A stretch of DNA of 24,577 nucleotides. Source: a virus. The stretch lies in the IMG/VR virus record IMGVR_UViG_3300013118_000118, positions 1 to 24,577 of that record, one strand, 5' to 3'. Numbering within the stretch: position 1 is the stretch's first letter; each line of letters begins with the position of its first letter. This document shows, in pieces, positions 3,191 through 17,435 of the stretch. The notes under the pieces are model-generated. The model was not told where the DNA came from, did no database searches, and worked only from the letters and a program-made list of their open reading frames with translations. The position numbers and the translations under genes were made by a program.

Positions 3191-5979
3191 CCGTTCTCAA
3201 AGCCGCTATTATCTGAGGTGTTGACCCACTCGGTTGCCACGCCACTAGCTGCGATGGCACGCAGGCGCACGTCATAGGTCTGGCCGTCCTCGAGTCCGCC
3301 CACGCGCACCGTGGCCGCTTGGCCTTCTGCTGCTGTAGCAGGCTGCCAAGGCATCAAGCCCTCGGCATGATAGATGCGCCACTGGACCCCGATACGCTCA
3401 ACCGCCGGATGCGGCAACGGCACGCCCTCATCGTTGACATCAGAGGGCCAATTCAGGGTGATGACAATCCCGCTATCTAAGCTGCCATCAGGCAACCGCC
3501 GCAATGCACCCTCATCGGTCTGAATGGCGATGATGTCAGGCGTGAGCGGCGGCGTGGCTTCCTGGTCTGGGCGGCTGCTAATGGTCGGCTCATAGCTTGA
3601 AGCGGTGCCTGCATCATAGACGGCATCGCTGTAGGGTATGAAGCTCACCGAGGCCGTCTCCTGCGAGGCAGGCGCGATGCCAGTAACTAAGCACTCCTGC
3701 ACGATCTCATCAACTAGGCCGACTGTCACCAGGTCATTGTCAGGTGTCCAGTCTGCAAGCGACACCGGCCCAAGCACGCTCCAGGTGCTCTGCTCGCCTA
3801 GCCCGGCATTGAGCATGAACGGCCCGAGCTTGTCACCCGTGGCAGCTTCGCGCACTATGATCTTGTAGGTGCCAGCGGCAACGGTCGTGCTGGTGTCTAG
3901 CGTGATGGTCAGCAGTAGCGAGGAGCCGTTATCCGTGTAGCTTATTACCCGCGCCCCCGGCGTCTGCCCTATCAGCGCGGTATCATCTGACACCTCAACA
4001 TAGGCACCCCGCTGGAATGTCAGGTGCTCAAAGTCCATCTCTTTTGTGAATGTCTCAGGGCGCTGAATCGCGCAGTTGATGTAGTACCAGCAGAGCTTAT
4101 CGGCCAGCGTGGCATTGGTGCAGCCCCAGAGGTTCAGGGCCTCAATGTTGGTTGCCGTGTCACCATCGTAGCCATCGCGGTACACTGCGCGCTCGGTCTC
4201 AATCCAGCCGTTCGCCTCGCTGACATAGCTGGCCCTGATGCCGTGGATAGGCTCTGCGAGCGTCTTAGTCCCCTGCCCGCCCCATGAGTTGCGCGGGGTG
4301 ATGAGAGCAACCGGCGTTTCACCGCTGCGGCTCTTGTCCTCAAGAACTGAGTAGGCCCCATCATCCATCCAGAACGTGCCGCGCCCGATAGATGCCACCG
4401 CCTCAAGCGCCTGGTAGGTGGTCTCCTGGTTCTCAAATACGGCGTTGAAGGTAAAGCCGTTGGTGACATTGTTGGCGGCCCAAGTCGCCAGTGCGGCGGG
4501 GTCAATGTCTGCATCCGCCGCCGGGTTGGTATTGGCCGAGCCGCGCAAGATGTCCGCATAGATCCAGGCCGGATTGTTGTAGACATCATCACCGCCATAA
4601 GACAGGGCAGGCGTCTGCCATGCCCCGCTTGCATAGTGGGCAAGATAGCTGCGCGCCTCTACGTTGAGCCGGTTGATGAGGTTGGCATACTCACCCGGCA
4701 CGCGGATGCCAACGGTGGAGACGTAGAGGCCATCAGACTCATAGGTGTTGACGGGGTCGATCCACGACACCGAGCGCAAAAGGCTCAACTCACAATCATT
4801 GTAGAGCGTATACCTATCGTCAACTTCCGCAGCGTACGGCGTTTGTTTGATGCGCACTTCCCATTGCTGCGGCGTGTCAACCGTGCCGCCGCCGTCTGCC
4901 GGAACGACACCGGTTAGCTTGAAGCGGCGGGTTTTAACTCGCACCTTGCCGCTCTTGCCAATGACCGTGCCATAGCCTACCAACTGCCAACCATCGGTTG
5001 CATCGCAGCGCACCTCATACAAGAAATCAGACCGCGCACCCAACCACAGATACAGAGGATCAAAGCACCCTAGCCCCTCGGTAAACTTGACCGACACGAT
5101 GATTTCATCGGTATCCTCTGCCGTATTGATGGGCGCACTATAGGTGTCATCAACTAGCTCAATCGCACAGGTCTGGTCGGCGAGCATTGGCGGGAATACG
5201 GTGCGGGCAGCATCACCGCTATAGCCCTCGCGCACCTCATACTCGGAGCCCTCGTAGTCATCATCTGCTATGATGTCGTCTAGCAGAGTGTCACCTAGCT
5301 TGAGCGTGCTGGTGTCAATGTCTAGCCGCCCGTAGCCGAGCGTGTAGATGGCTCTAATGTAGGTGCCATCCTCATCAATATGGTCAATCCAGTGCTGCCC
5401 GGCTTGGCGGGGATAAATAATGCTCTGGCCGTAGAGGCGGGGGATAGCGCCATAAGGCGTTAGGCCGTTCTTGTTGACGATTGGCAGGTCATTAGGCTGC
5501 AGCTTGTCCTGGGCGGGCAGGGGGATAATCTGATTGACGCCCCAAAGACCTAGAGCAGAGAGGCCAGAAGTTATGAGGGCGGTGCCAACCTTACTAGCAA
5601 CAAACGCCCCGTTTACTACCTTGCCCCATCCAAGCCAGCCTGCCAGTGGCCCCGCGCCACCCACAGAGCCAATCACCACTGCCAACATAGCAACCGTGCG
5701 CAGCGTATCCTTGCCTTTGTCGCCTCCGCCTGCAGGCACCGCCCTAACTGCTATCAGCTCATCAGAGCCAACTAGCCAACTATGCCACTCATCTGCAGGC
5801 CGTGCAGCGCCCTGATGGCTGACGCTATGCCAGTAGCCCTGGCTACCCTCAATCTCAACATCGCGCACGACCGAGGCGATAGACCGCCCCACGCCAACGC
5901 GGTACTCGCGCACCTCATTACGGAACGGATTGGGCCGGACTACCACCCGTGCCGTCTGTGTCAGGGCTGTGCAAGCCAC
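2122..5979 (-). CDS. Central tail fibre / host specificity protein, J-like, with an I-like N-terminus
   Basis: At 1285 aa this is the largest gene. It matches the J-type tail-tip protein that forms the central fibre and recognises the host. The tail-tip core motif NGLTPYGAIPRLYGQ lies at about residues 171-185. Residues 10-85 look like a small beta-grasp domain and 94-155 like a hydrophobic Gly/Ala segment, the layout of separate I-type assembly proteins, so I and J appear fused. Residues about 845-1050 contain fibronectin-III-like domains, followed by a receptor-binding tail. The start is GTG at 5979 with GGGGG about 9 bases upstream, overlapping the NlpC/P60 gene by 19 bases. Codon use changes at about residue 930 (see findings). 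Confidence 0.88.
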   Translation of the reverse strand: MACTALTQTARVVVRPNPFRNEVREYRVGVGRSIASVVRDVEIEGSQGYWHSVSHQGAARPADEWHSWLVGSDELIAVRAVPAGGGDKGKDTLRTVAMLAVVIGSVGGAGPLAGWLGWGKVVNGAFVASKVGTALITSGLSALGLWGVNQIIPLPAQDKLQPNDLPIVNKNGLTPYGAIPRLYGQSIIYPRQAGQHWIDHIDEDGTYIRAIYTLGYGRLDIDTSTLKLGDTLLDDIIADDDYEGSEYEVREGYSGDAARTVFPPMLADQTCAIELVDDTYSAPINTAEDTDEIIVSVKFTEGLGCFDPLYLWLGARSDFLYEVRCDATDGWQLVGYGTVIGKSGKVRVKTRRFKLTGVVPADGGGTVDTPQQWEVRIKQTPYAAEVDDRYTLYNDCELSLLRSVSWIDPVNTYESDGLYVSTVGIRVPGEYANLINRLNVEARSYLAHYASGAWQTPALSYGGDDVYNNPAWIYADILRGSANTNPAADADIDPAALATWAANNVTNGFTFNAVFENQETTYQALEAVASIGRGTFWMDDGAYSVLEDKSRSGETPVALITPRNSWGGQGTKTLAEPIHGIRASYVSEANGWIETERAVYRDGYDGDTATNIEALNLWGCTNATLADKLCWYYINCAIQRPETFTKEMDFEHLTFQRGAYVEVSDDTALIGQTPGARVISYTDNGSSLLLTITLDTSTTVAAGTYKIIVREAATGDKLGPFMLNAGLGEQSTWSVLGPVSLADWTPDNDLVTVGLVDEIVQECLVTGIAPASQETASVSFIPYSDAVYDAGTASSYEPTISSRPDQEATPPLTPDIIAIQTDEGALRRLPDGSLDSGIVITLNWPSDVNDEGVPLPHPAVERIGVQWRIYHAEGLMPWQPATAAEGQAATVRVGGLEDGQTYDVRLRAIAASGVATEWVNTSDNSGFENGVEVIGMSTPPPDVEGLSLDAGLLSWSYPIEPIDFAGFRVRWIQTSLDTDTYATWDYATPIHDGIITTNQIIIPPLNTGVTHLLVRAEDIAGNQSDAVMVEATAGDPETENIAYSRRYGNHASANQPWAPILNYNGYIADKDENGNVIPLPEPDSEYYYKFWAFITRGESSEAAHEYYDVHPQYYLDFEVENAVNYHVDYLVHNPGDSFNPQEDDGWVPFAQKSEAIIRYAELYDVYHFAKTIRICVEAQLQSLAIPRIKWGRIRYGYPTLTDSGTLTLWGTAANNTANLTGNATYYRDATTQLTSYSDGTPGQIYCTDLNPGGGLGPEFRKTDSASTASYTVLTRGYRAFGGGAS

Positions 5980-6380
5980 CGATATACCCCCGCAATCCTA
6001 TCGCGCCAACGTCTACAGTCTAGCCGCTCAACCGTTACGTGCCCCATGCCGCGCTCAAGATGCGCGAGCCAGCCGTTGCCTACGTGTAGGCCGACGTGGC
6101 ACGCACGGCCGCCTATCGCCAGGCTTACCACGTCGAACGGCTCAATCTGTCTAGGGTCGATCTCCTCCCACCGATGGACTTCTGCGGCTGTCATCACCGC
6201 TATGTCATCGCGGTCCTCTGTGCTCTCATAGCCCGCGTCTAGGCTCGGCCATCGCCAGCCCTTCTCCTGCCGGGCCACCATCCGCACCCACCCCCAACAA
6301 TCCGCCCCGTTTGCATCGCGCCCGTGGTCAACAAAGGGCACCGCCATGTAAGGCCGTAGCCACGCGGGGGGGCCGGTCAT
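5961..6380 (-). CDS. NlpC/P60-type cell-wall peptidase, K-like tail-tip protein
   Basis: This 139-aa protein has the NlpC/P60 fold signature: GADCWGWV with C28 as nucleophile, ACHVGLHVGNGWLAH with H95 as catalytic histidine, and H107 as a possible third residue. In phages with J-type fibres this protein (lambda K-like) sits beside J and is thought to cut peptide stems of peptidoglycan during tail assembly or DNA entry. Its start overlaps the upstream gene stop as ATGA (6377-6380), and its end overlaps the J-like start. It lacks the additional Mov34/JAB domain found in lambda gpK, so it is a peptidase-only form. Confidence 0.85.
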   Translation of the reverse strand: MTGPPAWLRPYMAVPFVDHGRDANGADCWGWVRMVARQEKGWRWPSLDAGYESTEDRDDIAVMTAAEVHRWEEIDPRQIEPFDVVSLAIGGRACHVGLHVGNGWLAHLERGMGHVTVERLDCRRWRDRIAGVYRWLAQP

Positions 6381-7627
6381 GGCGCCTTTGGCCCAAACGC
6401 CCAGTAATTCACGTAGCTCGGGTCTAGCTGGAAGTCGTGGCCCGGGTTGCTAGACGGCTCTGTGTAGACGCGGAGCGAGTCGGCCACCTTCACTTCAATG
6501 CCGAGCGTGTAGCCCATATCCAGCGTGAGGGATGACCACTGAGGCTGTCCCTTCCACGAGCAGAACGCTTTATGATTTGTCGTAACGCCGGCCACATAGA
6601 ACGTGGTGTCCTGGCATTCCTGATTGAGCGTCAGCGTCCCCGCGGCAAAGTGCAGGCCCCCGAATGTCTCGGCCCCGTAGGCATACAGCAGCTCACCAGC
6701 CGCAATCGCATCGCTCGCATCGTTCAGGTCTGACACCTCAACCGCTGCGTCTTGAATCGTGGCCTTGGCTGTATTGTCTAGCGTCACGTCCTGGCTCATC
6801 TGCATATCAGTTGCCACGCCGCCCGCATTGCCAACAATGATATAGGTAGAGGCCAGTGAGTTATCCACGGTGGTGGTTGATATGGTCTGAATCTTATCGT
6901 ACACGGCGTTCTTGGTTGGAACATTGAAGTCTCCATTCCATCCGACCGCATAGGCATCATCGGGAACGATCAGGTCCGCCGCGTAGATGCTCTCTGCGTA
7001 AGCCACCTCTGTGCTGCAATGCGATGCCACATAGAGCGAATCAAACACGGCATCCAGCGTGCCACCCTCCATGTAGGTGCTAACCTGCGAGGTGCGCATG
7101 ATAGAGGCCGCAATAGCTGCATCTGGCACGGTGGCCCCGGTGCCCAAGGCGATGTTGTAGGTGGTATCAGGGTCAAAGTGCGCGTTGGCTAGGATGCTGT
7201 CACGCAGGGCATCCTCGGGAATAACCTCAGCCGCGAAGTTAGCCGAGCGGGTAATGACACTATCGCCAAGCTGAGGCGCTGCAACGTAGAGCGAGTCTAA
7301 CAGCGTGTAGTCGTGGTCATCGTTCTCAAACCAGAGCGCGTAGAGCTCGCTGTAGGTCATGTCACGACCGTGCCACAATCCAGCCGTACCGCTGTAGTCG
7401 AGCCAGATGGTTGTGCCGGTGGTATCGCCCTGCGAGCGGTATGCCTTGACAGTGCCATTGTCCGCATCAGTCAGCGCCGTTGCGGTGCTGTCCTCAAGAT
7501 AGAACGGCACCACATGCACAACATCATGCAAGCCCTCGCCCATAGCGCGCTGCGTCTGCACCGATGCCAGGAAGCCTAGACTGAGCAGCGTGAATAGCAC
7601 CGCCCAGGTTGTATATCGTTTACTCAT
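6377..7627 (-). CDS. Fibre-like protein with an N-terminal signal or anchor segment
   Basis: I place the start at ATG 7627 (416 aa), 6 bases after AGGGGG. In-frame ATG at 7630 and TTG at 7633 are too close to that ribosome site. Residues 1-28 read as a signal peptide or membrane anchor: MSKRY, then TTWAVLFTLLSLGFLA. Exported or anchored structural proteins are uncommon among phage tail genes. The body contains two copies of a DSLYVA segment (about 111 and 196) and FNVPTKNAVYDKI (about 234-246), a motif I know from many phage tail fibres. The gene lies between the DUF1833 and NlpC/P60 genes, where lambda-like tails have none. It could be a fibre, an adhesin or a lysogeny-conversion surface protein. 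Confidence 0.6.
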   Translation of the reverse strand: MSKRYTTWAVLFTLLSLGFLASVQTQRAMGEGLHDVVHVVPFYLEDSTATALTDADNGTVKAYRSQGDTTGTTIWLDYSGTAGLWHGRDMTYSELYALWFENDDHDYTLLDSLYVAAPQLGDSVITRSANFAAEVIPEDALRDSILANAHFDPDTTYNIALGTGATVPDAAIAASIMRTSQVSTYMEGGTLDAVFDSLYVASHCSTEVAYAESIYAADLIVPDDAYAVGWNGDFNVPTKNAVYDKIQTISTTTVDNSLASTYIIVGNAGGVATDMQMSQDVTLDNTAKATIQDAAVEVSDLNDASDAIAAGELLYAYGAETFGGLHFAAGTLTLNQECQDTTFYVAGVTTNHKAFCSWKGQPQWSSLTLDMGYTLGIEVKVADSLRVYTEPSSNPGHDFQLDPSYVNYWAFGPKAP

Positions 7628-7637
7628 CATCAACCCC

Positions 7638-8249
7638 CTACAGTATTGCCTTCTTGGTGCTGCCTACCTTGAATGAAAGCCCACCCTCACCCTGCGGCGT
7701 GCCCTTCAATGAGTCCGGCCCACTCCACTCATCTGAGGGCGCGCCAAATACCATAGGAAAGCGACTGGGGGTCATCGTGTGGCCTGGGAAAGGTTCGCTT
7801 ACTAAGGGCTTGTAGCTCAGAGCGCCGCCCAGGGTGAAGTCATCCCAATCAACGCTGTAGAGCTTCATGCTCGGAAACGTGATCTCAACTACGCTGCTGG
7901 CCGGCGTGGTTGCGCGAATGACGTAGATCGTCACATCTATCGGGCCTGTCAACGTGCGCACTATCTCGGTAGGCGACCACGTTGCGGCGCCGTCATCGGT
8001 CATCAGGCCGATGTTGTCAAGCTCGAGACGCGCCTCGGGCGGGCGGTCATCCTGGTCAAAGGGCAACGTGATCTCATAAGGGAAGGCTTGATAGGCATTG
8101 CCCCCGAATGTCACCGCCTCGCCATTATCAGTCACGCGGATGTCATCGGTGAGGTCGTCATGCTCGATCAAGAGCGCGGTACAGATAACCTCCCCGGTTT
8201 CTTGCGCGAGCATCGCGGCCAGGGTTGTGCCACTTATGCTGCGGGTCAT
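7638..8249 (-). CDS. Tail-tip protein, DUF1833 family (L-like position)
   Basis: This 203-aa protein matches what I know of the DUF1833 family of phage proteins: an N-terminal beta-domain (EVICTALLIEHDDL, NGEAVTFGGNAYQAFPYEI) and the closing motif EPFPGHTMTPSRFPMVFG at about residues 152-169. It occupies the position of lambda gpL between the M-like and K-like genes. It is therefore probably a baseplate or tail-tip component at the end of the tube. No L-type cysteine cluster is visible. The start ATG 8249 overlaps the upstream TGA (ATGA), and only 10 bases separate its stop from the next start. Confidence 0.7.
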   Translation of the reverse strand: MTRSISGTTLAAMLAQETGEVICTALLIEHDDLTDDIRVTDNGEAVTFGGNAYQAFPYEITLPFDQDDRPPEARLELDNIGLMTDDGAATWSPTEIVRTLTGPIDVTIYVIRATTPASSVVEITFPSMKLYSVDWDDFTLGGALSYKPLVSEPFPGHTMTPSRFPMVFGAPSDEWSGPDSLKGTPQGEGGLSFKVGSTKKAIL

Positions 8250-8602
8250 GGCTTACGTTTCCACGCAATAGTCACCAGCCACATATCAGGCCCGTGGTTG
8301 TCCCAGGAATACCCACGGATCCGAAAGTCTGCCGTATCCCCGCGCTCTGGGTCAGTCATCTCAATGAACGTTGCGCCGCGCTTGGTAGTTGTGTAGTAAA
8401 GCGTGTGCAGCTCATCCATCTGCGCATCGGTGAACCAGTATTGAAGTGTATACGGGCGAGTGGTCGCCGTGCTGCGGCATCTATACTTAGGGTCTCCCGT
8501 GCTCATCGGGGTCTCAAGGCACGCTTCTGCAGACTGGCCGGAGGAACCCTTGCGCAGCGGCTCGGGGGCATTGGTAATGGCAGAAGTCCAGACCGTTGAC
8601 AT
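8246..8602 (-). CDS. Minor tail protein, M-like position
   Basis: This 118-aa protein lies directly after the tape measure gene, with its ATG following the TAG stop with no gap. It has alternating beta-type sequence (TRPYTLQYWFTDAQMDELHT, GATFIEMTDPERGDTADFRI) and ends DMWLVTIAWKRKP. That end resembles the form of tail-tip adaptor proteins, in which a final strand carries basic residues. Position between tape measure and DUF1833 gene corresponds to lambda gpM, the first tip protein to contact the tail tube. Family membership is inferred from position and size. Confidence 0.6.
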   Translation of the reverse strand: MSTVWTSAITNAPEPLRKGSSGQSAEACLETPMSTGDPKYRCRSTATTRPYTLQYWFTDAQMDELHTLYYTTTKRGATFIEMTDPERGDTADFRIRGYSWDNHGPDMWLVTIAWKRKP

Positions 8603-10612
8603 CTAGCGCCTCCTCGGTTGGCGCCTGCCACCGGTTGCCTGGCCTAGTACCTTGTCAGCCTTGCCCGTGCCGATGGTGTCTAAGACGATAGACTCCACCA
8701 TTACACGCAGACCGCCGCCCGGCTTGCGTTGCGTAGAGATGTCAACTAGGCCCGTGGCATGGTTCTCAATGGTGACGCCGCCCGTGCTATTGTCCACGCC
8801 CGCAGGCGCTACCCACCCGCCCGTGGGCAGGTCATAGCCCACATCGCCAGGCCCGGCAGCAGTAGCGCCTGCGGTGGTCGGCAGCCCCAGCGCCCCCTGC
8901 AACGCCTGCACAAGCGGCTGCGTGATGTAGAGCTGCGCGATGAGGCGGGCCAAATCGGCAACGATACTGTCAATCCAGTCAGACCATTTCTTTGCCCATA
9001 GGTCGCCATCTACGATGCCCTGCGCGAACACGTCCGCAATATTGTCGCCCCAGCTCTGTATGTAGTCCTCAAAGCCCTCAAACTTCTTGACCCAGTTTTT
9101 GAGCCAGTTGCCAATCTTGCCGCTGGCCGACTCGCCCGCTTCCCCGCCCCCGCCTATCGACTTAGAGACGGCGTGCATGAGTAGGGCAAGCTGGCCGTGG
9201 ATCTGCCGGTAGGTTTCGTCTATCGTTTTGACGATTTCTAGGTGGACCTCAAGCTCCTCGGTGGCTTCGCCGCTCTTGTTCTTGAGCACGCCGAATGCAG
9301 CGCCCGCGCCCAGAACGGCCAGCCCTGCGAGCTTGGCCCAGCCCGGCAGGCGCGCCAGTGCAGCCCCAATCTGCGCAACGCTTCCGGCTGCGCTGAGGGC
9401 AGGCCCGGCAACCAACAGGCCAATCTGCACCTCAGTAGGCAATGCAGCAAACTTGTCTAGGATGGTGCCAACCACGCCAGTCAGGCGCTCGAGCAGAGGA
9501 AGCATCTCCTCTAGCTTGGGTATCAGCTCGGTGCCGCTATCAATGGCAATGTCCTTGAGCTTATTCCAGAAGATGGTCAGCTTGCTGGCAAACGTCTCAT
9601 ACCGCTTGCGCGCTTCGTCGGTCAGGGCAACATTTTTCTGCCAAGCGTCACGGCTTGTGTTGAGCATCCTCCTGACCTTGTCGCCAGCACCGGCCAGGGT
9701 GATGAGCGTATTGGTTACGCGGATGTCAGCCAGCTCTACCGATGCCAGCGCCTCATAGACATTGCCGCCCTCCTGGTCGATGCGCTGCAGGCCCTCGATA
9801 AACGCCGCAATGGCATCGGCTGCATTATCCTCAAAGGCGACCTTGAACTGCTCGCCCGTCATGCCCGCGATGCGCCCGAACCGGTCAAGCTCTTTGCCGC
9901 CGCTGAGAACTGCAGACTTCATCTTCGCCACGGTCTTAGTCGTGGTCGATCCTGCAAGCGCCGCCTCAATGCCCACGCTGCGATAGGCAGCGGCCAGGCC
10001 AACTAGCTCCGCTTGGTTCATCCGTGCGACATTGGCCGAGCCAGCCATGCGAGTAGCGGCTTCTACGATCTCTGACTCAAACACCTCATACTTGTTGCCA
10101 AGGTCAACCACGGATGAGCCTAGCCGGTCGTAATTGTCCGCGCTCATCTGCGTGATGCTGGCAACTCGCGCTAGGCCAATCGCGGCTTCTTTGGCTTCAA
10201 TGTCGGTAGTGTTGCCCAAGTCAACCATGATGCGCGTGAAGTCAAGCAGGTCAGACTTGGCGATACCCAACTGCCCCGCCGCTTCAGCCACGCCTGCAAT
10301 GGCAACTGCACTGACCGGAATCTCTGTAGACATCTTGCGGATGCCGTCACTGAGGGCCTGATACTCGGCCGCGGTGGCATCTACGGTCTTACGCACGCCC
10401 GCAAACGCGCTCTCATAGTCGGCAGCAAACTTGACCGCAGCGGTGCCTGCAGCAAGTAGCGGCATGGTGACATTGCGCGTGAGCATGTCCCCGTGCCGCT
10501 TCGCATTCCGGCCGAACTTGTTGAGCTTCTTGCTGGCCTTGTTCATGCCCTTATCAAACTCAGCGATATTCATGCCGAGCTTGATAAGAAGGCTGCCAAC
10601 TACGTTAGCCAC
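8603..10612 (-). CDS. Tail tape measure protein
   Basis: This 669-aa protein sets tail length and is ejected ahead of DNA. Residues about 65-310 match the phage minor-tail TMP core (PhageMin_Tail, TIGR01760 type): ADYESAFAGVRKTVDAT, GVAEAAGQLGIAKSDLLDFT and LVGLAAAYRSVGIEA are typical. Residues about 396-443 are a hydrophobic Ala/Gly stretch of the kind thought to insert in the membrane. At roughly 1.5 A per residue the tail would be near 100 nm. The start is GTG 10612, 21 bases after the frameshifted chaperone stop. The upstream AAAGAG is a weak ribosome site, so coupling to the preceding gene is likely. Confidence 0.92.
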   Translation of the reverse strand: MANVVGSLLIKLGMNIAEFDKGMNKASKKLNKFGRNAKRHGDMLTRNVTMPLLAAGTAAVKFAADYESAFAGVRKTVDATAAEYQALSDGIRKMSTEIPVSAVAIAGVAEAAGQLGIAKSDLLDFTRIMVDLGNTTDIEAKEAAIGLARVASITQMSADNYDRLGSSVVDLGNKYEVFESEIVEAATRMAGSANVARMNQAELVGLAAAYRSVGIEAALAGSTTTKTVAKMKSAVLSGGKELDRFGRIAGMTGEQFKVAFEDNAADAIAAFIEGLQRIDQEGGNVYEALASVELADIRVTNTLITLAGAGDKVRRMLNTSRDAWQKNVALTDEARKRYETFASKLTIFWNKLKDIAIDSGTELIPKLEEMLPLLERLTGVVGTILDKFAALPTEVQIGLLVAGPALSAAGSVAQIGAALARLPGWAKLAGLAVLGAGAAFGVLKNKSGEATEELEVHLEIVKTIDETYRQIHGQLALLMHAVSKSIGGGGEAGESASGKIGNWLKNWVKKFEGFEDYIQSWGDNIADVFAQGIVDGDLWAKKWSDWIDSIVADLARLIAQLYITQPLVQALQGALGLPTTAGATAAGPGDVGYDLPTGGWVAPAGVDNSTGGVTIENHATGLVDISTQRKPGGGLRVMVESIVLDTIGTGKADKVLGQATGGRRQPRRR

Positions 10613-10633
10613 GCGGGCGCTCTTTCTGAGGGT

Positions 10634-11112
10634 CTATTGGTTGCGGCGCTGGTCCGCTTCGTATGCAAGAACCGCAAGCCAGGTACGCACCTCATCCATG
10701 CGCATCGTGGCTTGCAGCTCTGTCATTGTCCTGCCTAGGTCTCTTGCCATCCGCACCCAGAACCAGACATAATCGCCCGGCTCAGGGCGGATCACTCTTT
10801 TTTTTCCGCTGTTACGTCCTCGCTGCTGATGCCGGACAACTCAGAGGCGGCAACAAACACCGCGCTGATGTCATCCTCATAGCCGCGCAGCCCCTTGACG
10901 GTATCGACATCATCAAAAAGCGGCTGCCGGTTCTCAGGATCAAACGCACACGCGGCTACCAACTCTGCCATTGCGCCTAGCTGCACATGGTCTCCGGTGG
11001 TTGCCTCCTGTATGCGCTCGATAAGCGCCCAGGTGGGCGGAAGAACCAGCACGCTGCCAAAGCCGTCTGTGTCAATCGTCTTCTCACGGCGCGGCTTGAA
11101 CGTCTTACCCAT
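10634..11112 (-). CDS. Tail assembly chaperone, long form made by -1 frameshift (G/GT type)
   Basis: Two products are expected. The short form is 106 aa (ATG 11112 to TGA 10792) and ends TAEKKE. At A AAA AAA (10804-10798) a -1 slip continues the frame for 54 more codons, starting RVIRPEPGDYVWFW and ending YEADQRRNQ, to TAG 10634-10636, giving about 159 aa. I translated the extension by hand and it is open throughout and in the correct frame. The extension contains MDEVRTWLAVLAYEA, resembling the C-terminal parts of T-type chaperone domains. In lambda, G and GT bind the tape measure and tail tube subunits during assembly. The position directly upstream of the tape measure gene agrees. Confidence 0.85.
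10774..10804 (-). promoter_or_regulatory. Programmed -1 ribosomal frameshift signal
   Basis: The heptamer A AAA AAA at 10804-10798 is in the correct zero-frame phase (GAA AAA AAA GAG TGA). Eight bases further on, a hairpin can form with stem CGCCC/GGGCG (10789-10785 with 10778-10774) and a six-base loop. Slippery site, short spacer and GC-rich stem together are the standard arrangement for tail chaperone frameshifting. The zero-frame stop lies inside the spacer, as is common. A run of eight A residues could also be read with other slips or transcript slippage. Confidence 0.8.
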
Positions 11113-11531
11113 TACGCAACCGCCCTGGCCATGCCCGTGCTTGAGGCATTGACAAACTTGACCGGCATCATCACCACGTCACCATGAGACCCGGCCAACG
11201 GCGGGAAGCTCTGCACGTAGCATGTACTGGTAAAGCTCGGGTTGTCGGCGTCGACCGCGTCAGACGTTGGCTTGATGATGATTGCCAGCGTGCTCTTGGC
11301 AGCGTATGCCGTCCAGATGTCCTCACTGATGTCGTCATCTGCGAAATCTGCATAAAATTCAATGTCTAAGCTGAAACTCAACACGCCCGCAAGCGCGTTG
11401 CTCCAGCTTTCGCTCATCGCCGTTGCGTCTGGACAATCACAGTCGCACTGAATCGTCAGACTCTTAACGTGATCGCTCTCATCAGAGCCGCCTACACTCA
11501 CGTAGGCATCGGTAAGCGTTAGCTTCGCCAT
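11112..11531 (-). CDS. Tail tube-like protein, short paralogue
   Basis: This 139-aa protein begins MAKLTLTDAYVSVGG and shares a layout with the next upstream gene: a SE-W-N segment (SESWSNALAGVLSF here, SEGWDNFKPGTLKF there) and a GSHG[D/E] segment near residue 113. Beta-rich sequence and position just upstream of the assembly chaperone are those of the tail tube subunit that polymerises around the tape measure. With two candidates, either could be the main tube protein and the other a variant for the tip or the terminator end. Its ATG follows 15 bases after the stop of the 245-aa gene. Confidence 0.65.
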   Translation of the reverse strand: MAKLTLTDAYVSVGGSDESDHVKSLTIQCDCDCPDATAMSESWSNALAGVLSFSLDIEFYADFADDDISEDIWTAYAAKSTLAIIIKPTSDAVDADNPSFTSTCYVQSFPPLAGSHGDVVMMPVKFVNASSTGMARAVA

Positions 11532-11546
11532 GTTCCTCGGTCTCCT

Positions 11547-12284
11547 CTACTGAATGCCCATTACAACAGTGTAGGTCATGCTGGTGCCAACAAATGCCGA
11601 CACGGATGCACGCCAATATGTATCGGTGTTGGCCCCGGCCACGGGTGTGCCCCACTCGTAGGTAATGCCGGAGGCCGCCGTAAACGTGATGTGATCGGTG
11701 TGGCTTGCAAAGCCAGAGGCTTCATCGCTCTGAATCTTGACCGTGCAGCTTGTAAAGTTGTCCGCAGTGATGTGCAGCGCACCATATAGGGTCTGCGTAT
11801 CACTCACCGCGCCTAGCTCAAGCGCCGTGCCATCCTCGGTGCCCGTGGCCGTTGCATTGCGCAAGATGGTGCCCATGACGCCCACGCCACCGCTGGCACT
11901 GTCGCCCGCCAACGTCAGCGACCAGGGTGCAAGCTCGCCATGCGAACCAAAGCACTCATAGCCCCCGGTGAGGGCTTGGAAAAAATAGCACTTCTCGTTC
12001 TCATCGCCGCCATCGGCCGCAACGGTGAACACACGCCCCGATGCGCTGAGGCTGCCAAACATGGCAGCATCAGGCTGAATCACGCTGCCGACATCGTCAT
12101 CCCAATAGCCGTTAGCACTGGCGCCGAACTTGAGCGTGCCGGGCTTGAAGTTATCCCACCCCTCGCTAAAGGTCGTGGCCTTCTGCATGTCGCCATCGGT
12201 CTCAAGCGTGACCTGGTTACTGTAGCTTGTGATGTCATACTCACCAAACAGCAGCCGTGCATTTGTGAGAACTGTCTTAGCCAT
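11547..12284 (-). CDS. Tail tube-like protein, long paralogue with extra C-terminal domain
   Basis: Residues 1-150 of this 245-aa protein align by eye with the whole of the 139-aa neighbour (MAKTVLTNARLLFGEYDIT, SEGWDNFKPGTLKF, GSHGELAPWSLTLAG). Residues about 155-245 form an additional beta-rich domain (SDTQTLYGALHITADNFT, ASGITYEWGTPVAGANT) that could decorate the tube surface, as extra Ig-like domains do in some tail proteins. It is probably the major tail protein by size. Its start overlaps the small Cys/His gene by 8 bases. Confidence 0.7.
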   Translation of the reverse strand: MAKTVLTNARLLFGEYDITSYSNQVTLETDGDMQKATTFSEGWDNFKPGTLKFGASANGYWDDDVGSVIQPDAAMFGSLSASGRVFTVAADGGDENEKCYFFQALTGGYECFGSHGELAPWSLTLAGDSASGGVGVMGTILRNATATGTEDGTALELGAVSDTQTLYGALHITADNFTSCTVKIQSDEASGFASHTDHITFTAASGITYEWGTPVAGANTDTYWRASVSAFVGTSMTYTVVMGIQ

Positions 12285-12519
12285 CGGCCTTGTCTCCGTT
12301 CAGGGGCGCTGTGTATTGTCCGAGGCACTTCCTGCACTCATAGCGCCTATGGTCCTTGTCTACGCCCATTCTGCTGATGTCGCGCTGCATCTCTTCCGGG
12401 TGCTCGCACTCTTCGTCATCCTCACCATCGGCGGTCTCCATCAACTCAATCGTCTGCACCAGCAAGTGCGCAGCACCGGCAACCATCTCCTTGACCGCTT
12501 GCAGTTGGTCAGCCGTCAT
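12277..12519 (-). CDS. Small acidic protein with possible zinc-binding Cys/His set
   Basis: This 80-aa protein has an amphipathic N-terminal helix (residues 3-30), an acidic stretch (31-42) and C38-x-H40 with C62-x-x-C65, which could hold one zinc ion. It lies between the tail terminator and tail tube genes and overlaps both by about 8-11 bases, so it is translated with them. I do not recognise the family. A structural accessory or small nucleic-acid-binding role is possible. The tight overlaps argue that it is a real gene. Confidence 0.55.
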   Translation of the reverse strand: MTADQLQAVKEMVAGAAHLLVQTIELMETADGEDDEECEHPEEMQRDISRMGVDKDHRRYECRKCLGQYTAPLNGDKADG

Positions 12520-12904
12520 ACTTGACTATCCCCCTCAACATTACGCGGTGGCTCTCGGTCGGCTCATCAAAGGGCTGGCCTGTGCCGGTCTCTAACTCGA
12601 TATGCTGAATCACAATGGCCTCGCTTGTGCCGCTGTAGTTGTTCAGCGCCCCGTCAACCGCTGTCGCCAGGGCAACCGCCCCGCCCCTGCTATCCGCGTA
12701 GCAGTCCGCCTGAAAGCGGCGCCAATAGTGATCGGGCGCATCGCCCATTGCCCACTTGCCATGTCCGGGCAACATCGCCAGCCGCACGGCCGGCATGGTT
12801 TCATTCTGCTCGAGCTTCTGCCACCTCGCCCGCACGCCTATCAGCCCGCTCACCGTGCCATCAGCGAGAAGCACCGCCGTGATTGCTTCGCGGATGTCAG
12901 CCAT
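12509..12904 (-). CDS. Tail terminator, DUF3168-like
   Basis: This 131-aa protein starts MADIREAITAVLLADGTVSG and has MPAVRLAMLPGHGKW, a middle strand ending in FQADCYADSRGGAVALATAV, and a closing HRVMLRGIVKYDG strand. This order of short helix, strand-turn, helix and strand is that of DUF3168/gpU-type proteins, which form the ring ending the tail tube and joining it to the head. Position between the gp10-like gene and the tube genes agrees. It overlaps the preceding gene by 8 bases. Confidence 0.7.
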   Translation of the reverse strand: MADIREAITAVLLADGTVSGLIGVRARWQKLEQNETMPAVRLAMLPGHGKWAMGDAPDHYWRRFQADCYADSRGGAVALATAVDGALNNYSGTSEAIVIQHIELETGTGQPFDEPTESHRVMLRGIVKYDG

Positions 12905-13352
12905 TGGCGAGCTTCCTTTGCTTGGCTTTCCACCGCTTCATAGACCCCTGCAGCACCTTGATGACCGCGTTGAGGCTCTCCTGGTGTCCGCTATCTAGCG
13001 CGCTCTCCAGCCACGCCATTGGCGCAATGTACTTAGTGCCCATCTCAGTGAAGAAGCCATACCAGACATTGCGGCTAGGCCCGATAGCGTAGGTGATGTC
13101 ATCGCCGTCACGGCTGCGCCGCTTGCTAACCGTCATCGACCGCTGCATTGTTCCGGGCGCGACCGTTACGCCGCCATGCGTGTGCGCTTCGTCCGCTACT
13201 GGCGCATTGGCAACGGCATGGTCTAAGAGCGGCAAAGCACCCTTGCGCAGAGCGCGGCCTATAGTCCGCTTGCGGACCTTGTCGGGCAAGCCCTTGAGGT
13301 AGGCGCTGAGCTCTCGCCCGCCCTCAAGCTCTATCGCAACGCCGTCACCCAC
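12897..13352 (-). CDS. HK97 gp10-like tail completion protein
   Basis: I choose GTG 13352 as start (151 aa) because it overlaps the upstream TAG as TAGTG, the same arrangement as the endolysin start, and because the family begins at this point (GVAIELEGGRELSAYLKGLP). The ATG at 13400 would add 16 residues of unrelated sequence inside the upstream gene. Residues 1-70 contain the gp10 pattern, a leading strand followed by LPDKVRKRTIGRALRKGALPL. FFTEMGTKYIAPMAWLESAL at about 99-118 is the family's conserved end-of-domain motif. The family acts in joining head and tail. Confidence 0.8.
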   Translation of the reverse strand: MGDGVAIELEGGRELSAYLKGLPDKVRKRTIGRALRKGALPLLDHAVANAPVADEAHTHGGVTVAPGTMQRSMTVSKRRSRDGDDITYAIGPSRNVWYGFFTEMGTKYIAPMAWLESALDSGHQESLNAVIKVLQGSMKRWKAKQRKLANG

Positions 13353-13684
13353 TAGATGCGCTCCTTGGCATGAATCAAAAGCCACCGCTTGCGTTTGCAC
13401 ACATTGTTGACCAGCACAAAGTCATACTCCGCGCCATCTTGGTCTACGCCATACATCCGAGGCAGCACCCCGGCCACATAGCGCATTCGAATCTTGTGCG
13501 TCATCATGCCCTGCTCGCGGTGCGCTGCTATCAGCTCGGCCCCTTTCAGGGTAATGATGCTGCAGCGCCGCGTGGCGTGCAGCGTTGGCTCATCGTCCGG
13601 CTCGCCAAAGCCGTCAGGATCCGAGTCGGCTGCGCCTGCCGGGTCATAGATGCTCAACGTGTGTCGCATGGGGCCGGCACGCAT
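13352..13684 (-). CDS. Head closure / head-tail adaptor protein
   Basis: This 110-aa protein fits the Phage_H_T_join (SPP1 gp16-like) family: GPMRHTLSIYDPAGAADSDPDGFGEP at the start, the central HKIRMRYVAGVLPRM strand, and a final strand VCKRKRWLLIHAKERI. These small beta-barrels close the connector after packaging. Its ATG overlaps the connector-gene stop (TGATG at 13682-13686), and the second Met (residue 6) is a possible alternative start. The gene order connector, closure, gp10-like, terminator is the standard siphovirus order. Confidence 0.75.
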   Translation of the reverse strand: MRAGPMRHTLSIYDPAGAADSDPDGFGEPDDEPTLHATRRCSIITLKGAELIAAHREQGMMTHKIRMRYVAGVLPRMYGVDQDGAEYDFVLVNNVCKRKRWLLIHAKERI

Positions 13685-14277
13685 CAGACCTTGTCTACCT
13701 CATACTTGGCTATCAGCCGGTCATAGGCCGTAGGCCCTCTAATGGCCTTGATCTCACCGCCCATCGTGTACTCCGACGCCTCACGGTGCTCATACATCGC
13801 GGACACCAGCAGAACGATGGCTTGCTTCAGTTGCTCTGGCACATCGCCCGCCGCGCCGTATCCTGCTACGTAGGTGATCGTCACCGCCCCGGCTTGGTCT
13901 CTGGTGCTCGGCCAGCTATAGCCGTAGGCAGGCGTAACGCGCCCTTTGCGCACATCGCTGGTTGCGTCAACATCGTACTCATCGCTAGACCAGGTCTGTG
14001 AACTCCCGGCCGTGTCTACGTAGGCAATGCTGGTGACACTCGCCAGCGGGGGCCTAGGCAAATAGATGACGTCCTCATCAGGGAAGCTGTCTAGCGTCAG
14101 TACCCAGGTCTGCGTCATCAATGCCCGGCCGGTCTCATCCTCGAGCTGCTCACGCGCTACAGAGACAAACCGCGCAATCAGGTCATCGTCGGTCGTGCCT
14201 TCTATGACCGCTTGCGCCTTGGCCTCTGCAACCGTGACCGGTTCTGAGGTTGGCCCCGTTGACCGCGTCAACCGCAT
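13684..14277 (-). CDS. Head-tail connector, gp6/phiE125 gp8-like
   Basis: This 197-aa protein contains EPVTVAEAKAQAVIEGTTDDDLIARFVSVAREQLEDETGRAL at residues 12-53, the signature helix pair of phage connector proteins of the phiE125 gp8/HK97 gp6 kind. It continues with LPRPPLASVTSIAYVD, a central ITYVAGYG motif at about 139-146, and a C-terminal helix LKQAIVLLVSAMYEHRE. The protein forms a ring beneath the portal. The start overlaps the end of a 58-aa gene by 10 bases. Confidence 0.85.
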   Translation of the reverse strand: MRLTRSTGPTSEPVTVAEAKAQAVIEGTTDDDLIARFVSVAREQLEDETGRALMTQTWVLTLDSFPDEDVIYLPRPPLASVTSIAYVDTAGSSQTWSSDEYDVDATSDVRKGRVTPAYGYSWPSTRDQAGAVTITYVAGYGAAGDVPEQLKQAIVLLVSAMYEHREASEYTMGGEIKAIRGPTAYDRLIAKYEVDKV

Positions 14278-14444
14278 CGCATCTCCCTTGCCCGGTGGTC
14301 TAGTGCTGCGGTTTCAATCATGCGGGTGGCCTTGAGGGCAGGGCAGATATGTACCACCCGGCCCTCGGCCACCCGCTTGCGGACAGTTTTCTTGTCTGTG
14401 TCAATGGGTGCGTCTGCCCGCTTGTTTTCGGTTTGTTGGTTCAT
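14268..14444 (-). CDS. Small basic protein of 58 aa, unknown function
   Basis: This is a short gene linked by overlaps on both sides. Its ATG at 14444 overlaps the TGA of the 123-aa gene (ATGA at 14441-14444), and its own TGA (14268-14270) lies inside the connector gene start. It begins MNQQTENKRADAPIDTDKKT, continues VRKRVAEGRVVHICPALKAT and ends HRAREMRCG. It is basic, with two cysteines, and I recognise no family. Many siphoviruses carry a comparable short gene between the capsid and connector genes. The coupling is the main evidence that it is translated. Confidence 0.6.
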   Translation of the reverse strand: MNQQTENKRADAPIDTDKKTVRKRVAEGRVVHICPALKATRMIETAALDHRAREMRCG

Positions 14445-14812
14445 CGGATGTAGACAATCACCTTGCCGCCCTTGGCGTTGCCGCCATTGGCAACCGTTAC
14501 GGTCAGCACTGAGTCTGCAACCGCAAGTAGATCATCATCAGAGCCGGCCACATAGGTCGGGCCAGTGTTGGCGATGTTTTCGCCCAATCCAGCGAGTACA
14601 TCATGGCCATCAGCGTCAGTAACGGTCACGTCATACAGGTTGCTGGGCGTGGTCACGCCGCCATCAGGCACTTGCAGCACTGCAATGACCTTTCCATCAA
14701 ACGCCGCAGTGCTTGACCCGTCAGCATCACCGCTGGCGTCACTGGTCCAGGTGAAAGTCAGCTTCTTGACGCTTGTGTGCGTCACTTCGGTTGTCGTTAC
14801 CGTGCCCGCCAT
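14441..14812 (-). CDS. Probable head-associated structural protein
   Basis: This 123-aa protein has AGGGGG 6 bases before its ATG. The sequence is beta-rich and of a kind I know from many siphoviruses as an uncharacterised structural protein: TTTEVTHTSVKKLTFTWTS, SNLYDVTVTDADGHDVLAGLG and a closing GGNAKGGKVIVYIR. Position between the major capsid gene and the connector gene suggests a capsid decoration or head fibre part. No catalytic motif is visible. Confidence 0.6.
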   Translation of the reverse strand: MAGTVTTTEVTHTSVKKLTFTWTSDASGDADGSSTAAFDGKVIAVLQVPDGGVTTPSNLYDVTVTDADGHDVLAGLGENIANTGPTYVAGSDDDLLAVADSVLTVTVANGGNAKGGKVIVYIR

Positions 14813-14822
14813 CTCTCACCCC

Positions 14823-15536
14823 CTAGCGGCACTGAATGCACCGGATCCAGTCAACCTCAAGGCCATCGTTCTGCATCGTGCCCGTGCCGTTCAGGTAGGC
14901 CACTGACACGCGCATCTCGCCCGTGGGAATGTTGGTTGACACCTTCGCCGCCGAGACTCCGTCAACGAAGAACTCAATGTTGCCAGCGCCATCATAGAAA
15001 AACTCTGTAACGATGAACGTGTCATCGACCAGGTCTGTGGTAGAGTCCACCGCTGCACCGGTTCCGCCTGCGCGACACTGATAGTCAAGATTCGCGTCAC
15101 CGTCATGGGTGACAAAGCCGATGAAGTCATTGGGCACGCCAATAACGCTAGCGTCAGTCAGCGCCAAGCCAATGAGCGCATCGCTCTGTGTTTTTTCGCT
15201 GATGTTCCACCGGCAGCCGAAGTACAACGGCTTGTCGGTCTCGAGCTTCCACGCCTCGCCATTGGTCTGCGACTGCAACCCATCGTTCTCATTGGCCGCT
15301 GCATTCCAGCGCACCACGCCGCCGGCCTCATCTTGCGCGATATGCGTAGAGCTTCCCGTACCAGCCTCAACGGCCGTATTGGTCCAGCCAGCCAATAGGC
15401 TGCTCACCAGAAGCGGCGCGGTAAAGTCCTCGATGAACTTCTTGACATCGGCCCCAACCGCATCTAGCCAGCGGTACTCATACTGGTCATACCAGACCAG
15501 CGCACCATTGACCCATTTGCTATGTGCATCACTCAT
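14823..15536 (-). CDS. Structural protein with a possible concanavalin-like (LamG) fold
   Basis: I prefer ATG 15536 (237 aa), which has AGGGGG 9 bases upstream. The longer frame opens with GTG at 15566 with no ribosome site. Residues 1-30 form a leading segment (SDAHSKWVNGALVWYDQYEY). The rest alternates short strands in the style of lectin-like jelly rolls: DKPLYFGCRWNISEKTQSDAL, DTFIVTEFFYDGAGNIEFFVDG, VSVAYLNGTGTMQNDGLEVDWI. Such domains bind sugars or decorate capsids. In a head gene cluster it may be a surface protein that helps the virion stick to mucus or cells. The fold assignment is by pattern only. Confidence 0.55.
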   Translation of the reverse strand: MSDAHSKWVNGALVWYDQYEYRWLDAVGADVKKFIEDFTAPLLVSSLLAGWTNTAVEAGTGSSTHIAQDEAGGVVRWNAAANENDGLQSQTNGEAWKLETDKPLYFGCRWNISEKTQSDALIGLALTDASVIGVPNDFIGFVTHDGDANLDYQCRAGGTGAAVDSTTDLVDDTFIVTEFFYDGAGNIEFFVDGVSAAKVSTNIPTGEMRVSVAYLNGTGTMQNDGLEVDWIRCIQCR

Positions 15537-15632
15537 CTCGGTTGTCCCCCTCGCCCCGCAGGGCACCGGCTAGGCCGGCAAGGTAGGTCGGCAGGGCAGG
15601 CGGCAATGCCCGCCCCGCCTGGTTGGTTGTTA
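15537..15632 (-). other. GC-rich gap with two hairpins and a possible 25-codon frame
   Basis: Two inverted repeats occur on the transcribed strand. CAGGCGG pairs with CCGCCTG around an 11-base loop, and CCGGC pairs with GCCGG around CTA. There is no following T run, so these are not typical terminators and may instead stabilise the highly expressed capsid message. A TTG-initiated frame (15606 to TGA 15529) would encode LPPALPTYLAGLAGALRGEG plus DNRDE and overlaps the next start as ATGAGTGA. Its translation is uncertain. Confidence 0.35.
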
Positions 15633-16109
15633 CTAGGTGACCGCCGTGGGCATCACATCCTCGGCATAACGGGGCTTGCCGAGCACCGCCATGATGACCG
15701 CGTCACACGGGTCATTAGCCGATTCCGTGGTCTGCACGCGCACATAGTTGCTACCAGCACTCAGCTCATTGCCGCGCACGCGGATGGCAACCATCTTGTT
15801 TGCGCCGGCCACGGTCGTGTAGCCGGATGTCGTGGCCGCCGTCCACGCGCCCCACGTATCAGCCGAACCGGCCGACGCGCAGAGGCGATAGTTGAATGCG
15901 ATAGCCGTAGCACCAGCCGCAGCGGCAGAAGTACACTCTTCCACCGTCAGCACGGTCGTGCCCGTACCACCGGCACCCTCACAGACAAGAAACGTAATCT
16001 CATCATAGAGCGCCAAGTTGTAGACATCGGTTGCCGGGTCAGAATCCCACCTGTCAGCGAGCGGCAGGAGTGCGCAGACCGGCAGGTGTTCGCTCATAAA
16101 CTTAGCCAT
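15633..16109 (-). CDS. Probable capsid decoration or head-associated protein
   Basis: This 158-aa protein is encoded directly after the major capsid gene (stop 16128, 18 bases earlier), with GGGAGGG 8 bases before ATG 16109. It contains DPATDVYNLALYDEITFLV, then TVLTVEECTSAAAAGATAI, VAIRVRGNELSAGSNYVRVQ and ends KPRYAEDVMPTAVT. This pattern recurs in siphovirus structural proteins of unknown function that I have seen beside capsid genes. Decoration of the capsid is the likeliest role. A 96-bp stretch with hairpin potential separates it from the next gene. Confidence 0.55.
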   Translation of the reverse strand: MAKFMSEHLPVCALLPLADRWDSDPATDVYNLALYDEITFLVCEGAGGTGTTVLTVEECTSAAAAGATAIAFNYRLCASAGSADTWGAWTAATTSGYTTVAGANKMVAIRVRGNELSAGSNYVRVQTTESANDPCDAVIMAVLGKPRYAEDVMPTAVT

Positions 16110-16127
16110 TGTCTAGGCCCTCCCTAT

Positions 16128-17435
16128 CTACCTGGTTGCCAGCGCCACGAACGGGCTCTGGGTATTCGTTCCCTTGAACGGGGTAAGCGAATCATTCCAC
16201 AACGGCTGCCCATTGTTGCGCATAACGAAGCGGAACAACGTCTGGCCGGTGGTGAAGTAAACGTGCATCGACTCGGCAAAGTCCACGCCACCCTTTTCGA
16301 TGGTCAGGTACTCTTCCGGGTTGCACAGAACGATGTCCCCGGTGGTGCCAAGCGTCTGGCACGCCTCCACCGGAATGACCGGACGCCCAAGCAGGCGACC
16401 GTAGGGCTCACCTGCAAGGCCGTTCGGCGGCAAGTAAACTGGGGCACCGCCCGTGCCCACCGGCATGGTCATGCCCCAGAGCTCAGGCTCAATGTCCTGG
16501 TTGACATACCACGCGGACCCCGCACGACTCGGGCCATAACAACGTGAGAACATCTTGAGAATGTTCTGCACTTTGATCGTGGCCGCCGTCTGTCCGGTTT
16601 CCTTCGGCACGGTCACAAGCGCCGGGCTGTTCATCACGCCGAGCATGTGACCGGCGCCGTCGCCATTAAAGAACTCATCATTCAGCGTAAACGCGAACTC
16701 CTTGGGCACCGTCTGGAGCACCCAGGAAGTGAGCGCCGGGGCATCCTTCAAGAGCTGGTCCGTGAACGGCACCAGCGCGGTCAGGTTCTCCAGCTCCAGC
16801 GTGATCTTGCCCAGCGTGGTCGTGCTGGCCGTGATGGTTGCGCCTTCGGCTTGCCTAAAGGCACGCAAGCCACCCCACCGGCTATCAGCCGCCCGGCTGG
16901 TCTCATCAATGTAGGGCAGGCTGATACTGTCGGAATTAGGCCCCACCGTGATCGTGGTGCATTTGCCGAGAATGTCAGTATTCTCATGCACCTTGTCCAT
17001 AATGGTGCTGATGTCATCGGTGCCAACCGCATGGCCACCCTTGCTCGGGGTGCCTTCGCTTTGCCCCTGCACGGCGCGCTGCTCGGCTGCGAGCACCTTG
17101 CCGCTCACCGGCAGATTGCGATAGCGCGGGTCCCCGGAACTACGCGCAGCCATCTGCAGCACTTCGCCAATGCTCAGGCTCTCGCGCTGGTCGTTTCCGC
17201 TCGGGTTTTGGCGCGGTGGATCATTGACCGGCACATGCGCGGCGCCCTGGCGCTGCTCTAGGCCGTCGATGGTGTTGGCGCGCTCAAGCAAGTCATCATG
17301 CTCTTTGATGTGCGCCTGAAGCTGCTCATGTTCCTCAACGGTCAGGTCGCGCTCATCAGCGCCGGCCGTTTCCGTCAACGCGGTGGCGCGCTTCAGAACT
17401 TCCTCAGCTCGCCGCCTCATCTCGGTTGCGTTCAT
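16128..17435 (-). CDS. Major capsid protein, HK97 fold
   Basis: This 435-aa protein has an N-terminal helical delta-like region (residues 5-60, charged heptad-like sequence), a linker rich in Pro/Asn/Gln (65-85), and then the HK97-fold body from about 140. Recognisable pieces are DKVHENTDILGKCTTITVGP, LENLTALVPFTDQLLKDAPALTSWV, DEFFNGDGAGHMLGVMNSP and the closing FAESMHVYFTTGQTLFRFVMRNNGQPLW. The delta region is expected to act as scaffold and be removed by the neighbouring protease. The start is ATG 17435 with GGGAGG 5 bases upstream, overlapping the protease gene end by 32 bases. Confidence 0.93.
   Translation of the reverse strand: MNATEMRRRAEEVLKRATALTETAGADERDLTVEEHEQLQAHIKEHDDLLERANTIDGLEQRQGAAHVPVNDPPRQNPSGNDQRESLSIGEVLQMAARSSGDPRYRNLPVSGKVLAAEQRAVQGQSEGTPSKGGHAVGTDDISTIMDKVHENTDILGKCTTITVGPNSDSISLPYIDETSRAADSRWGGLRAFRQAEGATITASTTTLGKITLELENLTALVPFTDQLLKDAPALTSWVLQTVPKEFAFTLNDEFFNGDGAGHMLGVMNSPALVTVPKETGQTAATIKVQNILKMFSRCYGPSRAGSAWYVNQDIEPELWGMTMPVGTGGAPVYLPPNGLAGEPYGRLLGRPVIPVEACQTLGTTGDIVLCNPEEYLTIEKGGVDFAESMHVYFTTGQTLFRFVMRNNGQPLWNDSLTPFKGTNTQSPFVALATR

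Follow-up and report, generated by a model that had tools for sequence, protein, structure and literature searches.

The stretch of DNA analysed here (hereafter the window) comprises 24,577 nucleotides, positions 1 to 24,577 of the IMG/VR virus record IMGVR_UViG_3300013118_000118, and carries a set of tail genes on its minus strand. Two adjacent major tail protein-like genes, encoding proteins of 245 aa (11547..12284; phrog_9522, E 2.7e-35) and 139 aa (11112..11531; phrog_4574, E 2.1e-15), are followed by a gene for a 106-aa protein (10792..11112), and this in turn by a gene for a tape measure protein of 669 aa (8603..10612; phrog_13339, E 6e-101; Pfam PhageMin_Tail, 3.6e-15). The 106-aa protein, which starts at ATG 11112 and ends in the zero frame at TGA 10794-10792, was assigned as a G-type tail assembly chaperone from its match to phrog_344 (tail assembly chaperone, E 6.5e-6) and from its position, flanked by the major tail protein genes and the tape measure gene.

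In a single comparison, the two major-tail-like proteins proved to be related (27% identity, E 2e-9), which suggests that the adjacent genes at 11112-11531 and 11547-12284 may represent a duplicated tail tube gene, of which one copy is longer. Full-length relatives of the 139-aa protein were found in Rhodococcus phages, at about 28-33% identity, and in one more record, from Pontimonas, hinting at a possible actinobacterial affinity for this gene (11112-11531). The T part of the chaperone, described below, by contrast comes closest to proteobacterial phages. When G, T, and the 245-aa major tail protein were used as queries against viral contigs, near-identical copies were all that came back. 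For two of these contigs, IMGVR_UViG_3300013119_000370 and IMGVR_UViG_3300007510_000252, stretches of 6-9 kb each were compared with the window (within 5606-16284), and identity was 99.99-100% throughout; the same phage is thus present in separate metagenomes.

Slippery site, -1 frame and predicted stem-loop

The 3' end of the chaperone gene reads ACA GCG GAA AAA AAA GAG TGA on the minus strand. The run of eight As (10805-10798) contains the heptamer A AAA AAA (10798..10804), and direct reading confirmed that it lies in zero-frame phase, as had been proposed in the first-pass annotation. No other run of seven or more As occurs on the window's coding strand. The main minus-strand ORFs, 7,717 codons in total, contain seven XXXYYYZ heptamers in phase, counting every kind, and A AAA AAA at 10804-10798 is the only one that belongs to the top class of recognised strong sites. 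When the codons of G were shuffled, a heptamer of the A/T type fell within the overlap in 1.5% of trials. The uniqueness of both the A run and the in-phase heptamer of the top class argues that the heptamer and the ORF behind it did not arise by chance.

The -1 frame is open from 10840 to 10634, such that it overlaps G and ends before the start of the tape measure gene at 10612. After a slip on the heptamer, the sequence would be read as AAA AAA AGA GTG ATC CGC ... CAA TAG, with 54 sense codons from AGA to CAA (10798-10637) and TAG at 10636-10634, giving a T-type extension at 10634..10798 and a fusion protein of 105 + 54 = 159 aa. These numbers all check against the claims made earlier from the sequence, including the claim that the extension fills a gap in the tail operon. 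Composition also singles out this frame: scored by the phage's own codon usage, the extension frame reached log-odds of +15.7 bits, while the other five frames scored between -4 and -21. Likewise, GC content at the three codon positions was 0.65/0.44/0.69 in the extension and 0.62/0.47/0.70 in the phage genes. The first-pass annotation had further expected a gene caller to miss the extension. This blind spot of gene annotation has long been known and is discussed in PMC10885494, but a GTG that overlaps the zero-frame TGA (10793..10795; GTGA), a weak candidate for an independent start, could let a caller list an ORF of 53 aa.

Downstream of the heptamer, a stimulatory stem-loop is predicted at approximately 10746..10797. 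In the minimum-energy fold, a long and near-perfect main stem, AUCCGCCCUGAGCCGGGC / GUCUGGUUCUGGGUGCGGAU, begins about 5 nt past the heptamer. The predicted fold of 10740-10815 has a free energy of -32.2 kcal/mol (z -4.15), and 0 of 200 shuffled sequences were equally stable. Equal stability was found in 0.3% of coding-strand 50-mers, in 0.07% of GC-matched 50-mers from the same strand, and in 1.2% of synonymous-codon shuffles in which the amino acids of the extension were kept fixed. A smaller hairpin proposed earlier, CGCCC(UGAGCC)GGGCG after an 8-base spacer, does exist, with a predicted stability of about -9.9 kcal/mol. It was dropped as the main structure, however, since the longer stem of the minimum-energy fold is a different one and much more stable.

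Relatives of the chaperone and its extension

The comparison with T domains called for in the first-pass annotation was carried out with profiles and found homologs of the extension, the opposite of the outcome that this annotation had named as refuting. The extension matched phrog_337 (tail protein) with an E-value of 4e-5, a family that also contains the T extension of HK97 (5.7e-38), just as phrog_344, matched by the 106-aa protein, contains HK97 gp13 (1.8e-42). The 159-aa fusion was colinear with phrog_14766 (E 0.0044), a family in which parts corresponding to HK97 gp13 and T are combined in one profile of 224 positions. Two out-of-frame translations of the same stretch were also searched, and neither gave a match. 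Compared directly with T ORFs of Serratia, Moraxella, Salmonella, Cronobacter, and Proteus phages, the extension showed 28-35% identity, and the motifs LGRT..EL and E...W are among the positions it has in common with these related ORFs. A tblastn search with the extension gave weak matches in phages, all with E-values of 0.09 or more and none individually significant; the six loci that were inspected all lay between a chaperone gene and a tape measure gene.

Both halves are divergent. The G protein of the window is 15-21% identical to known G proteins, and searches with it against phage records and against solved structures returned nothing useful. An AlphaFold model of G, made without an alignment, had a mean pLDDT of 46.5 and was set aside. 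At the Pfam gathering score, G did not match PF06222 (Phage_TAC_1), to which HK97 gp13 scores 203 bits, and the extension, alone or within the fusion, did not match PF06223 (Phage_tail_T), to which HK97 T scores 73 bits. The PF06223 model begins close to where the stretch common to HK97 T and the extension ends, and most of it lies over the part that is absent here.

The comparison of G/T overlaps covered 19 cases: besides that of the window, 12 came from contigs, viral and bacterial, and 6 from phage records, HK97 among them. Those on contigs were located via the tape measure gene, upstream of which overlapping ORFs were chosen by eye. The T part lay in the -1 frame in 19 of 19 overlaps, a uniformity that is partly an effect of this selection. 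The presence of a heptamer, on the other hand, played no part in choosing the overlaps, and an in-phase XXXAAAZ or XXXTTTZ heptamer was found in 17 of the 19, against 0.9 expected from codon shuffling. The relatives' heptamers, such as GGGAAAC, GGGAAAG, AAAAAAC, and TTTTTTA, often come without long homopolymers. The two overlaps without a perfect in-phase heptamer were those of Cronobacter phage ENT39118 and HK97; in two Rhodococcus phages that have a T part in the -1 frame, no heptamer was seen on inspection. In some relatives, T is annotated as a separate ORF, and in several, the -1 frame has no start codon near the overlap. A strong stem-loop was present inconsistently among the related overlaps examined, and the relatives found were either identical to the window in the stem region or too diverged there to reveal covariation.

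Among characterized systems, HK97 gp13/gp14 offers close parallels in gene order and family membership: both phages have members of phrog_344 and phrog_337, arranged as major tail protein, G, T in the -1 frame, and tape measure, with the slip near the end of G. The HK97 record (NC_002167) annotates the product as "translated due to a -1 frameshift". Unlike the window, HK97 has a moron between T and the tape measure gene, a T part of about 100 aa rather than 54 aa, and, according to our scan, no perfect XXXYYYZ heptamer where the window has A AAA AAA; the two G proteins are 17% identical. The T domains of Moraxella phage Mcat and Serratia phage OS31 align with the extension at 32-35% identity, and these phages have in-phase AAAAAAC or AAAAAAG sites comparable to that of the window, but their T domains are longer and include the Phage_tail_T (PF06223) part that the extension does not match. 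The likeness to lambda gpG/gpGT is one of mechanism: a short and a long chaperone, the latter made by -1 frameshifting at low frequency, are encoded before the tape measure gene. The slip site of lambda is GGGAAAG, and its T domain is longer than that of the window.

A lambda-type frameshifted tail chaperone as the most probable reading

Taken together, the heptamer, the stem-loop, the codon usage of the extension, the homology of both halves, and the conserved arrangement support a -1 frameshift of the lambda G/GT type. The locus is therefore very probably a frameshifted tail chaperone cassette of this type (HK97 gp13/gp14-like) in an uncultured siphovirus-like phage. The first-pass annotation had arrived at the same lambda-like reading, which is now backed by the homology of the extension, the upstream protein's match to the HK97 gp13 family, and the related overlaps, in which T lies in the -1 frame and a slippery heptamer is almost always retained. 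Frameshifting in the window, its rate, and its role in assembly are inferences.

Read without a slip, the extension could also be made as a separate T-like protein of 53 aa, by termination and re-initiation at the GTGA, in which case no fusion would form. Stop-start overlaps of this kind are common in phage operons, the GTG at 10795 does overlap the TGA, and relatives with separately annotated T ORFs exist. However, the predicted Shine-Dalgarno pairing ahead of this GTG is -3.5 kcal/mol, which ranks it with the weaker starts of the window, compared with about -8 kcal/mol typically (the start of the tape measure gene is weak as well), several relatives lack any start codon near the overlap, and the HK97 product is annotated as a frameshift. 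Re-initiation would moreover not account for the presence of a unique in-phase heptamer and of a stem-loop, and we regard it as very unlikely. The same fusion protein would result from transcriptional slippage, in which RNA polymerase adds one A within the run of eight. Such runs can support slippage by RNA polymerase, but eight As are at the low end for doing so efficiently. In relatives the heptamer pattern persists, often in the absence of a long homopolymer, and the strong downstream structure suits ribosomal slippage better, making a transcriptional origin highly improbable.

That the -1 ORF and the heptamer are coincidental, and the gap non-coding, might be argued from the size of the extension, just 54 codons, and from database matches that are weak in absolute terms. 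Against this, the match at 4e-5 is to phrog_337, the family expected at this position, the codon-usage score is positive in this frame alone, the heptamer is unique, and the stem-loop is extreme; the probability of coincidence is next to nil.

Under the preferred reading, a programmed -1 frameshift, most ribosomes would translate the 106-aa G and terminate at the TGA. A minority would stall at the stem-loop while A AAA AAA is occupied by two tRNA-Lys, move back one base, and translate 54 further codons to yield the 159-aa GT. The binding partner of lambda G is the tape measure protein, and that of lambda T is the major tail protein (PMC5009743). By analogy, many copies of G would coat the tape measure protein encoded at 8603..10612, the expected client of both G and GT, while a few copies of GT would bring in the major tail protein via the T part. 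Experimental confirmation of the frameshift is cited for lambda, P2, L5, TM4, phiC31, HK022, and HK97 in PMC5313236.

The mechanism, the protein families, and the annotation blind spot are all already known, and the locus is an ordinary, divergent example. It differs from the textbook case in that the Pfam models for the two HK97 halves match neither of its own and in that T is about half the length of its HK97 counterpart. One speculative, rather unlikely explanation for the latter is a minimal T domain: the extension may have been cut to its first and most conserved half (LGRT..EL......E...W), which would suffice to recruit the tail tube subunit and is perhaps tuned to two paralogous major-tail-like proteins. 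While the understanding of the mechanism is unchanged, the locus adds one clear, divergent case to a widespread and well-understood mechanism. It assigns a function to a stretch of an uncultured phage genome that would otherwise be without one, and its short T part might help to delimit the minimal functional T domain.
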